A DNA stretch of 33,991 nucleotides from an uncultured Bryobacteraceae bacterium (GTDB lineage Bacteria; Acidobacteriota; Terriglobia; Bryobacterales; Bryobacteraceae): the NCBI GenBank assembly GCA_955652915.1, contig CATPCJ010000170.1, forward strand, positions 1-33,991, read 5' to 3'. Positions 3,729-32,974 of the stretch are shown in pieces (the stretch's first letter is position 1; each line of letters starts with the position of its first letter). A program made the translations under genes and the position numbers. The notes under the pieces are model-generated. The model saw only the letters and a list, made by a program, of their open reading frames with translations, was not told where the DNA came from and ran no database searches.

Positions 3729-4079
3729 ATGACAGTCTGGATGTTGGCGATCCCGGCGGCGTTGGTTATAGTGGGCGTCTATATTCTGTTTCGCATTCGA
3801 AAACATCCGAAGGATCGTGAGCAGCGGCGGCGCCTGGCAGTCAATCTTCACGGCCGCTTGGGCGACGCGATGATCACCGAAGTGCACGACGGCTTGGTTT
3901 TCTATGAGTACTCCGTGCGCGGCGTGCTTTACGCGGCATCGCAGGATGTTTCGAAATTGCGTGAACACATTCCCATCGACCCGGATCGGCTGATCGGACC
4001 AGTCGGCTTGAAATACTCGACTCAAAATCCCGCCAACTCAATCATCATCTGCGAACACTGGTCCGGCTTACGCGTCTGA
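3729..4079 (+). CDS. Small membrane-anchored hypothetical protein
   Basis: Unrecognised protein of 116 residues, last gene of the hslVU operon and 5 nt after the preceding stop. Residues 3-22 form one hydrophobic transmembrane segment followed by a strongly basic stretch (RIRKHPKDREQRRR), which predicts an N-out/C-in or signal-anchor topology with a soluble C-terminal domain of about 80 residues. The soluble part has alternating hydrophobic strands (AMITEVHDGLVFYEYSVRG, ending SIIICEHWSGLRV), suggesting a small beta-rich fold. Coding-like composition and tight spacing support a real gene. Function is unknown. Confidence 0.7.
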   Translation: MTVWMLAIPAALVIVGVYILFRIRKHPKDREQRRRLAVNLHGRLGDAMITEVHDGLVFYEYSVRGVLYAASQDVSKLREHIPIDPDRLIGPVGLKYSTQNPANSIIICEHWSGLRV

Positions 4080-4085
4080 AAAAAT

Positions 4086-4174
4086 AGGGTGACAGGCTCC
4101 GCCCTCCCAAGCCGCCCGAACATCGAAGCATGCGCATACGCTTTACGCGCGTGGACGGTGGTGCCTGTCACCCT
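4086..4174. repeat. Dispersed palindromic element, copy A
   Basis: An 89-bp element bounded by perfect 12-bp inverted arms, AGGGTGACAGGC at 4086-4097 and GCCTGTCACCCT at 4163-4174, followed by a T-run (TGTTTTTTT). The interior carries CCCAAGCCGCC and GCGCGTGGAC. A second copy in the opposite orientation lies at 32843-32933; when reverse-complemented it shares both ends and both internal blocks. Located just after the hslVU operon, the stem and T-run may also terminate transcription. The remaining sequence to 4283 has no recognisable gene. Confidence 0.85.
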
Positions 4175-4283
4175 GTTTTTTTGCCTGTGTGGATCTTAAA
4201 GCGATTTTTTCACAGCTTCGTAAGCGAGCGTTCCGAAATGCCGGGAACTTTCCCCCGGCCCAGGTGTCTATACTGCCGTGGCG

Positions 4284-13253: not shown

Positions 13254-14417
13254 ATGCATCATAGATATACGAACCGTCTCGTTTGCCTCTTTATCGCGCT
13301 CTCACTGATCTCCGGATCGGCTTTTGGGGCCACCCGGCACAAGGCCAAAGGTCACGCTACACGACGCTCGGCTCTCAAGAAGAAACTCGTCGCCGCGGCG
13401 CATCATCCTATCAGTCATCTGTCCAGGCTTCACCGGAAACGGGTTCCTTCCGGTAACTGGTCGTCCCCGACATTCGCGGATTCCACCGAAGGCGATTCCG
13501 TGGACGGCGAGGATCTCGTGGTGCGGCGAGCGGCAGTACAAGCGCTTGGTCCATATAACGGAAGCGTTGTGGTAGTCGACCCCAGCACCGGCCGGCTCCT
13601 GACCATCGTGAACCAGAAACTGGCGTTCAAGAGCGGCTTCCAGCCGTGTTCCACCATTAAGATCGTCGCGGCGCTGGCCGGTTTGAATGAAGGCTTGATC
13701 GATCAGAGCACCATGCTGCGGATCAGCCGGCGGAAGTCCATCGATCTCACCGAGGCGCTGGCCCACTCCAATAATCAATTCTTCTCTTCAGTCGGATACA
13801 GGCTGGGCTACGACAAGATCATCCACTACGCTCAACTGTTCGGTCTGGGCGAAAAAGCCGGATTGAACATCGACGGTGAACTGCCCGGGACCTTGGCGAG
13901 CGCGCCCCCCAGCGATGGCGTCGGCATGATGACCAGTTTTGGCGAGGGAATTTATATGACGCCGCTCGAGTTGGCCGGCATGATGACGGTGGTCGCCAAC
14001 GGCGGAACGCTTTACTATCTGCAGCACCCGCGCAGCAAGGAAGATATAGACCAGTTTGTTCCGCGCGTGAAGCGGCGGTTGGACGTGCAGCCTTGGCTAC
14101 CGCAAATCAAACCCGGAATGTCGGGCGCGGTTGAATATGGCACCGCCCGCCGCGCTAGCTACGCCTCATCGGATCCGATTTACGGCAAGACGGGAACCTG
14201 CACGGATAGCCGCTCTCCAACCCACCTGGGCTGGTTCGGCTCCTACAACGAGCTAGGAAACAACAAGCTGGTAGTTGTCGTACTTCTGACAGGCGGAGGA
14301 CGCGTGAACGGTCCAGTTGCCTCCGGAATCGCGGGCGCTGTTTACAAGAACTTGTCGGAAGAAAGTTATTCCGCGGGATCGCGTCCAGCTTCACCGATCG
14401 CTTTGATCTCGAATTAG
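13254..14417 (+). CDS. Penicillin-binding transpeptidase-domain protein
   Basis: Exported serine acyl-transferase of 387 residues. A signal peptide (LFIALSLISGSAFGA) is followed by a basic linker, then a transpeptidase domain with all three active-site motifs: STIK (Ser133, Lys136), SNN (172-174) and KTGT (312-315). MMTSFGEGIYMTPLELA is the usual penicillin-binding signature before the last motif. It lacks a glycosyltransferase or PBP dimerisation domain, so it is smaller than class A/B PBPs and may be a soluble or weakly anchored D,D-transpeptidase or class D beta-lactamase relative. It has its own promoter. The BlaI/M56 pair 1.2 kb upstream makes regulation by that switch plausible but unproven. 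Confidence 0.88.
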   Translation: MHHRYTNRLVCLFIALSLISGSAFGATRHKAKGHATRRSALKKKLVAAAHHPISHLSRLHRKRVPSGNWSSPTFADSTEGDSVDGEDLVVRRAAVQALGPYNGSVVVVDPSTGRLLTIVNQKLAFKSGFQPCSTIKIVAALAGLNEGLIDQSTMLRISRRKSIDLTEALAHSNNQFFSSVGYRLGYDKIIHYAQLFGLGEKAGLNIDGELPGTLASAPPSDGVGMMTSFGEGIYMTPLELAGMMTVVANGGTLYYLQHPRSKEDIDQFVPRVKRRLDVQPWLPQIKPGMSGAVEYGTARRASYASSDPIYGKTGTCTDSRSPTHLGWFGSYNELGNNKLVVVVLLTGGGRVNGPVASGIAGAVYKNLSEESYSAGSRPASPIALISN

Positions 14418-14439
14418 TCGAGCTGCTGCAAAAAAGCAG

Positions 14440-14543
14440 ACGTGGCGCGGACACTCGTGTCTGCGGGATCGAGACTCGTCTCGATCCTCTTGCCCGAGCA
14501 TCGAGATAAGTCTCGATGCAGCAGACTGAAGTCCGCGCCACGT
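14440..14543. repeat. Mirror-image two-hairpin element between convergent genes
   Basis: Outer 13-bp perfect inverted arms ACGTGGCGCGGAC (14440-14452) and GTCCGCGCCACGT (14531-14543) enclose two perfect hairpins: GGATCGAGAC/GTCTCGATCC (14466-14487) and GCATCGAGA/TCTCGATGC (14498-14519). The right half reverse-complemented closely matches the left half, so the element is an inverted pair of one unit. It fills the 133 bp between the transpeptidase and HAD stops and is flanked by an A-run and a TTATTAAAAA stretch, so it could terminate both transcripts. Confidence 0.9.
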
Positions 14544-14550
14544 GGCGTTA

Positions 14551-15261
14551 TTAAAAATACTCCCGCAGCTCAGCGAAACTATCAATCCTCAACAGGCATC
14601 CGTCTCCATCCCGCAGCTCTTCGTGTTCCAGCGTCCAAGTGTGCGGATGCGGCACGAACACTGCCTTGATTCCCACTTCCAGCGCGGGATTGATATCGGA
14701 CTTCGGCGAATTTCCAATCATCCACGTTCGCCGGGCATCCAGGTTCCGCTCCTCAATCAAAGCCTTGTATGACGCGGCGTTCTTCTCTTTCACGATCGCA
14801 GTGTGTCCAAAATAGATCGCCAGCCCCGATCGATCCAGCTTCAGTTTTTGCTCTTCCGGATCGCCTTTGGTAAATAGCGTGAGATCGTGCCTCATCGAGA
14901 GATATTCGAGCGTTTCCGGCACGTCCGCGATCAGCTCGATGGGATGGTGCAGGATCTGCTCGGTGAAACTCATCACCCGCGGAAGATCGTCCGCCAGAAT
15001 CTCGCGCTCCACCAGCCTTTGGTAACACTCCCCCAGATTCCTGGCGAAGTTGGCCGTGCCATATCCGTGGACTTTGTTATTCACCGTCTCGATCTCATCC
15101 AGCACCGCCCGCACTTCCGCCGGCGGCAAGCTGGAGTGCGCCAGAAAATCGCAAAAGTCGTCGAACGCGCGCTCGAAGTAGATATTGTTTTCCCACAGCG
15201 TATCGTCGGCGTCGACGATCAGATGTTGCCGGCCGTGAACCTTCAAGCGCTGGGCGGCCAC
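14551..15261 (-). CDS. HAD-superfamily hydrolase
   Basis: Cytoplasmic phosphatase-like protein of 236 residues. Motif I is DADDT (Asp17 nucleophile, Asp19), motif II TLFTKGD, and the acidic motif IV IGNSPKSDINPA; a helical cap of about residues 28-105 fits subclass IA. The substrate is unknown. The start is GTG 15261, placed inside the last codons of the LON-domain gene (19-bp overlap), so the pair is co-transcribed on the minus strand. It converges with the transpeptidase gene across the structured repeat. Confidence 0.88.
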   Translation of the reverse strand: MAAQRLKVHGRQHLIVDADDTLWENNIYFERAFDDFCDFLAHSSLPPAEVRAVLDEIETVNNKVHGYGTANFARNLGECYQRLVEREILADDLPRVMSFTEQILHHPIELIADVPETLEYLSMRHDLTLFTKGDPEEQKLKLDRSGLAIYFGHTAIVKEKNAASYKALIEERNLDARRTWMIGNSPKSDINPALEVGIKAVFVPHPHTWTLEHEELRDGDGCLLRIDSFAELREYF

Positions 15262-32643: not shown

Positions 32644-32842
32644 ATGTATACTCGCTGCCGGGGTTTGCCCAATCATCACCTCCAACCTGGTGAAGGTTCA
32701 AAGACTGCTGGGCGACCGGGTGGGACGCGATATCTTCTTCTACTCGCTGACGGTCCAACCCGAGCTGGACTCTCCCAAGGTGCTCAAGCAGTACGCGAAA
32801 ATGCACTGGTGAGCCCGGGCTGGTCCTTCCCTGACCGAAAAT
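32644..32842 (+). pseudogene. SCO1/SenC-family gene fragment, frameshifted
   Basis: Pieces of an SCO1/SenC copper-chaperone/thioredoxin-fold protein are spread over two frames: MYTRCRG at 32644-32664 in one frame, GVCPIITSNLVKVQRLLGDR and then DIFFYSLTVQPELDSPKVLK with QYAKMH at about 32660-32806 in the next, and VSPGWSF from 32809 back in the first. Together they match the central part of SCO proteins, including one Cys of the CxxxC metal site in each frame (Cys of TRC and of VCP). Both the N-terminal part and everything after GWSF are missing; copy B of the dispersed palindrome begins at 32843. Not functional. Confidence 0.75.
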
Positions 32843-32933
32843 GGTGACAGGCACCCGCTGTCCACGCGCCGTTCGATAGCGTTCACATCCTTCTGGATTC
32901 TGGCGGCTTGGGACAGTGGTGGTGCCTGTCACC
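32843..32933. repeat. Dispersed palindromic element, copy B
   Basis: A 91-bp element with perfect 13-bp inverted ends GGTGACAGGCACC (32843-32855) and GGTGCCTGTCACC (32921-32933). Its reverse complement aligns with copy A (4086-4174) over both ends and the internal blocks TCCCAAGCCGCC and GCGCGTGGAC, so the two are opposite-orientation copies of one family. It directly follows the SCO1 fragment. Confidence 0.88.
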
Positions 32934-32974
32934 ACTGTCTCAGTTCTGACTTAGTTGATACAATTCTAAAATCC

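Follow-up and report, generated by a model that had tools for sequence, protein, structure and literature searches.

The window analysed here, 33,991 nucleotides from an uncultured Bryobacteraceae bacterium, contains a 104-bp palindrome at 14440-14543, between two convergent genes. Three identities had been proposed from the letters alone: an RNA with a four-way structure, a non-autonomous mobile palindrome, or a two-way terminator. The second is strongly favoured by the evidence described below, the first holds as a description of geometry only, and the third finds no support as the origin of the element. The palindrome is very probably a REPIN-type non-autonomous element of a RAYT (TnpA-REP, an IS200/IS605-like HuH tyrosine transposase). 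REPINs are among the commonest repeats of bacterial genomes, and the mode by which RAYTs move them is unsettled.

Architecture and fold of the palindrome

The main features recorded in the sequence-only reading were all recovered. The outer repeat is perfect over 13 bp (14440-14452 and 14531-14543) and encloses two perfect inner hairpins, one of 10 bp at 14466-14487 and one of 9 bp at 14498-14519, and the two halves mirror one another, being 84% complementary over 31 nt. The element does lie between convergent stops. A PBP transpeptidase-domain gene (13254-14417, + strand; PF00905, E 1.8e-35) ends 22 bp before it, and a HAD-family hydrolase gene (14551-15261, - strand; PF13419/PF00702) ends 7 bp after it.

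The complete mini-element (14440-14543, assigned to neither strand; R1 match of 118 bits) runs from GTGG to CCAC with AC/GT flanks, and is laid out over ~104 bp as GTGG, hairpin A, hairpin B, a short linker, hairpin B′, hairpin A′ and CCAC. On its own strand, either end has the order GTGG, hairpin A, hairpin B. At the left end (+ strand) the GTGG tag, the REP guide tetranucleotide, occupies 14442-14445 and is invariant in an alignment of 39 copies from the same genome. Hairpin A, the REP hairpin, is found at 14446-14465 (CGCGGACAC-TC-GTGTCTGCG; 97% of alignment cells paired) and includes a G·T pair at 14449/14462. Hairpin B is at 14466-14487 (GGATCGAGAC-TC-GTCTCGATCC; 98.5% of cells paired, 5 compensated cells). 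The short linker (14488-14497, + strand) occupies the place that, by comparison with L083/L106, the RAYT gene takes in the parent unit. On the far side, hairpin B′ at 14498-14519 (+ strand; GCATCGAGA-TAAG-TCTCGATGC; 98% of cells paired) is followed by hairpin A′ at 14521-14536, which is the REP hairpin of the - strand (GCGGAC-TTCA-GTCTGC), with A-U/C-G compensation in 10 of the 39 aligned copies and a G·T pair on the - strand at 14534/14523. The right-end tag (14538-14541, - strand) reads CCAC on the + strand, and 5 of the 39 copies have the GTAG variant. A GT[AG]G tetranucleotide is therefore present directly 5′ of the hairpin at each end, as an invariant GTGG on the left and as CCAC or CTAC (GTGG/GTAG on the other strand) on the right. 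A pyrimidine (C or T) precedes GTGG in 123 of 134 ends. The family consensus is (AC)GTGG-CGCGGACACTCGTGTCTGCG-GCCTCGAGACTCGTCTCGAGGC-TCTTTCCCCGGA-GCATCGAGACGAGTCTCGATGC-A-GCAGCCTGAAGGCCGC-GCCAC(GT).

The G·T pair of hairpin A is at an identical stem position at both ends. It is present at the left end in 38/38 informative copies, and at the right end 35/39 copies have A x C on the + strand, equivalent to G·T when the GTGG strand is read. A pair of this kind is favourable in just one of the two strands, in keeping with single strands being recognised in folded form.

Compared with 200 shuffles, the folding energy of the element has z-scores of -9.6 and -10.0 as RNA (the two strands) and -7.9 as DNA. 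Over the four local hairpins, doubly changed cells number 18 where shuffles average 4.2, with a covariation score of 0.058 against 0.026, though the 39 aligned copies are the best BLAST matches to the window copy and their related rows inflate the compensatory counts. Covariation, the lack of which would have spoken against a structured element, was thus found. In 36/39 of these copies a single long hairpin, in place of the four local hairpins, is the lowest-energy single-strand fold, which counts against the model set out below, the median energy being -41.8 kcal/mol for the long hairpin and -29.4 kcal/mol for local pairs only, the latter computed with a base-pair span limit. In other genomes, A pairs with A′ and the B hairpins are mostly local because B and B′ often differ. 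The same layout is built there from different stems, 34 parsed ends yielding 18 versions of stem A and 28 of stem B; these matches were chosen with a structural model, and the ends found at RAYT loci (see below) are a less biased test.

Copies in the genome and element-free sites in relatives

A BLAST search of the own assembly with 14430-14550 scored 40 copies among 228 candidates, and the non-self copies share 83-91% identity with the query. The strict arm pattern GTGGCGCGGACN{4,12}TCTGC has 117 matches, against 0 for a reversed control pattern. A covariance model built on 39 copies gave at least 150 matches, 7 loci being matched on both strands, and puts the number of distinct copies in the 7.1-Mb genome at 143 or more. 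The two inverted REPs recur as a unit in the modelled copies, GTGG...CCAC with both ends. Length varies from 96 to 108 bp across 67 copies with exact ends, and mean column identity is 82% in the 39-copy alignment. Partial copies also occur, and many copies are partial or degraded. The prospect that no further copies would exist is contradicted by the own genome and by relatives alike.

The context of 80 copies was determined using simple codon-based gene calls: 40 are between tandem genes, 25 between convergent and 9 between divergent genes, while another 4 overlap called genes and the last 2 have no neighbour. The family is mostly extragenic (74/80 copies between two called genes), copies have a median separation of 6 bp from the closest gene 3′ end, and convergent sites are enriched (25/74 versus 9/71 background pairs, p 0.003). 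In other bacteria, too, REPs are reported to lie mostly downstream of genes (PMC3733652). Placement after stop codons could be a matter of tolerance or of target choice, and side effects of the element on transcript ends are conceivable.

The exact arm has 48 copies here but only 0-4 in each of four congeners, and the congeners G002 and G003 carry mainly an arm variant that matches their own RAYT ends. In the congener G004, the convergent genes of the window are ~14 bp apart with no element between them. In G002 and G003 (L088:1150-1700 and L087:2060-2560) the orthologous gap contains a distinct pair of palindromes with GTAG tags, GTAGGGCAAGCCTCCGGCTTGCCC...GACAAGCCGGAGGCTTGTCCTAC, the same convergent site being there occupied independently by another REP family.

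An insertion in coding sequence was found in an M20-family peptidase gene (L063:342-1580, - strand), where the element lies in frame and adds 39 codons, while the orthologues in G002 and G003 are uninterrupted. At 117 nt the insert exceeds the element plus AC/GT flanks by ~10 nt, and the insertion boundary is only approximate. Gene calls also run through element copies at L247:975-2108 (+ strand), in the N-terminus of a HlyD-type membrane-fusion protein, and at L073:743-2107 (- strand), in a protein without a Pfam match.

These distributions bear on the proposal that the palindrome is a structured RNA or bidirectional terminator, retained because it acts on transcripts from convergent genes. 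The stable fold on both strands, the median of 6 bp past stop codons and the enrichment between convergent genes are as such a role would require; the after-gene position is, however, equally expected for REPs. The element is missing at the same junction in G004, its amplification is confined to one lineage, and copies are inserted in genes too. No site resembling an intrinsic terminator (a G+C-rich hairpin followed by a T tract) was found within the element, and a search of Rfam 15 gave 0 matches above the gathering score in the window. A role of this kind is very unlikely to explain the family. With no T tract after the hairpins, a two-way terminator was rejected as the origin of the element, but a secondary effect on transcripts is possible given the position after stop codons.

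The RAYT unit and a model for mobilisation

The REPIN-type reading calls for a cognate RAYT with matching flanking REPs, and one is present. Six Y1-transposase matches were found in the genome. One of them, the RAYT gene on G000:C267, is flanked by both ends of the element family in the same arrangement, with the gene replacing the linker of the mini-element, and the other five Y1 genes are without the ends of the 104-bp family. The left end of the RAYT unit is GTGGCGCGGCCTCTTAGGCTGCG-GCATCGAGACTCGTCTCGATGC and the right end is GTGGCGCGGACACTCGTGTCTGCG-GCCTCGAGACTCGTCTCGAGGC, which are both family-consensus ends (L083/L106). The right end also supplies the last codons of the RAYT gene.

The open reading frame is intact and predicts a protein of 195 aa, which matches PF01797 with 31.2 bits (cut-off 23) and conserves the NHVH and YIENNP motifs, corresponding to the HxH and catalytic Tyr of the Y1/HuH domain. 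It scores 74.5 bits with the NCBIfam model REP_Tyr_transpos (NF047646), slightly under the curated cut-off of 80 (a value set for the database, which does not define the protein), and 25.2 bits with the IS200 model. A PDB sequence search with the RAYT returned nothing at 0.001.

The mini-element presumably arose from such a unit by internal deletion. The bases beside the right-end inner hairpin, GAAGAGCCTCGAG in the RAYT unit and GGAAAGAGCCTCGAG in the mini-element, would be consistent with this origin, the match being short with few shared bases. The REPIN would then consist of two inverted GTGG-tagged REP ends of the RAYT unit, with a linker in place of the gene. Where DNA is single-stranded, as at a replication fork, the GTGG strand of each end would fold into hairpin A and then hairpin B. 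The RAYT from G000:C267, acting in trans, would recognise GTGG and hairpin A, tell the correct strand by its G·T pair, and cut and rejoin single strands so that the element is copied or moved without target-site duplication. Mobilisation by this RAYT, including binding and cutting, and the single-strand processing of the ends are what we infer.

The designation as a non-autonomous mobile palindrome is upheld by more than 140 copies, a RAYT with matching ends, element-free sites in relatives and the in-frame insertion in a gene. From the four-way RNA, the geometry survives in the four local hairpins and their compensatory changes. The GTGG tags, the strand-specific G·T pair and the link to a transposase argue for folded single-stranded DNA as the substrate and not for a functional RNA.

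Target-site duplications were absent, repeats of at least 2 bp flanking 6.0% of copies and 6.0% of shuffled pairs. This bears on a second source of short palindromic repeats, a MITE of a DDE transposon, in which terminal inverted repeats are read as double-stranded DNA by a cut-and-paste transposase. The family does resemble a MITE in being short, palindromic and of high copy number, with inverted ends and no coding capacity. However, its within-end hairpins are kept by compensatory change, which recognition of duplex DNA does not need, and the gene with matching ends encodes a Y1/HuH transposase. A DDE origin was rejected on the absence of target-site duplications and on the ends shared with a HuH transposase, and is highly improbable.

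A further alternative is a REPIN that is no longer mobilised, its RAYT and repeats being retained for a domesticated role in the host (nucleoid or supercoiling sites, or transcript ends). REP families are known from the literature as binding sites of host proteins, and the many partial or degraded copies would fit such a state. The intact RAYT open reading frame, RAYT ends that still agree with the family consensus and copies that are both numerous and similar make it unlikely.

Two-hairpin ends at other RAYT loci and related systems

Among 30 RAYT loci gathered by protein similarity alone, an inward-pointing GTRG double-hairpin end was found at 23, and at both ends in 10; in dinucleotide shuffles the frequencies were ~2% per end and 0.2% for both ends. 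In a named genome collection, 19/30 loci of Acidobacteriota type, assigned by record title, have such an end compared with 13/50 from other phyla, some of the single-ended matches being likely due to chance (2-5% in shuffles). Both ends were found in 7/30 and 1/50, respectively. The nearest named relatives among the best 80 loci of this collection are permafrost and peat Bryobacterales and Solibacteraceae MAGs, and Koribacter versatilis was absent from those 80. Related genomes have double-hairpin ends around related RAYT genes, with hairpin sequences that differ and complementarity that is kept. The element family occurs without a detected close RAYT in some relatives (e.g. G004 and G047), which may be due to incomplete assemblies, other RAYTs or past activity.

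We tentatively suggest that the tandem two-hairpin end (GTRG, hairpin A and hairpin B) is the recognition unit of Acidobacteriota RAYTs, a possibility to which we give somewhat less than even weight. If so, it would be a recognition mode distinct from that of single-hairpin REPs, and hairpin B, drifting fast by compensatory change, may set specificity between co-resident RAYT families.

The element resembles the REPINs of Bertels and Rainey 2011 (PMC3116915) in having two inverted REPs and a spacer, a length of ~100 bp, dispersed and extragenic copies and a RAYT link. Long-hairpin and 'clover' folds have both been proposed for those REPINs, which have a single hairpin per REP and a spacer kept able to form one long hairpin. 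The element described here instead has two tandem hairpins (A and B) per end, and in its relatives in other genomes B and B′ differ, each being self-complementary. Canonical REPs, defined by GT[AG]G (PMC6006769), likewise have the GTRG tag adjoining the hairpin foot, and TnpA-REP recognises folded single strands strand-specifically, with conserved stem mispairing in one group, that of E. coli (PMC6006769, PMC8266576). The differences are the second tandem hairpin after the REP hairpin, and a conserved irregularity that is a single G·T pair here and a bulge in E. coli REPs.

Di Nocera et al. 2013 (PMC3733652) describe REPtrons and TIRtrons, RAYT-like genes with inverted ends, some 'double palindromic' and some belonging to repeat families organised in dimers, and name Acidobacteria, including the TIRYTs of Koribacter versatilis. 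The TIRs are described there as unrelated to GTAG repeats while the ends reported here are GTGG/GTAG-tagged, a separation made by description only. A literature search with the arm sequence GTGGCGCGGAC retrieved unrelated cell-biology and cancer papers only. REPINs and RAYTs are themselves established, and double-palindromic RAYT ends of a related kind were described in 2013 (PMC3733652). What sets the present family apart is the tandem pair of hairpins at each REP end and its amplification within a Bryobacterales lineage; compared with Koribacter by description, the family could prove a further member of that group. With an intact RAYT unit, more than 140 miniature copies, sister families in congeners and a coding-gene insertion with uninterrupted orthologues, the lineage is a natural test set for transposase recognition in a phylum little studied for RAYT/REPIN systems.

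Other repeats were seen in the same genome. A second family, at 4079-4181 and 32837-32939 of the window, has inverted GGTGACAGGCACC arms ~60-80 bp apart, and this arm has 60 exact matches in the genome but 0-2 in each of 30 relatives. Another RAYT of the genome, L081, has ends similar to these arms (GGTGACAGTCACC), and the repeat may be a second RAYT-linked family. The RAYT-like genes L082 and L084 (G000:C369 and G000:C181) have right-end palindromes of further families (GGCAGGTTACCAACCTGCC; CAGGCAAGAATGCCTG), suggesting that several RAYT/repeat families exist side by side in this genome.
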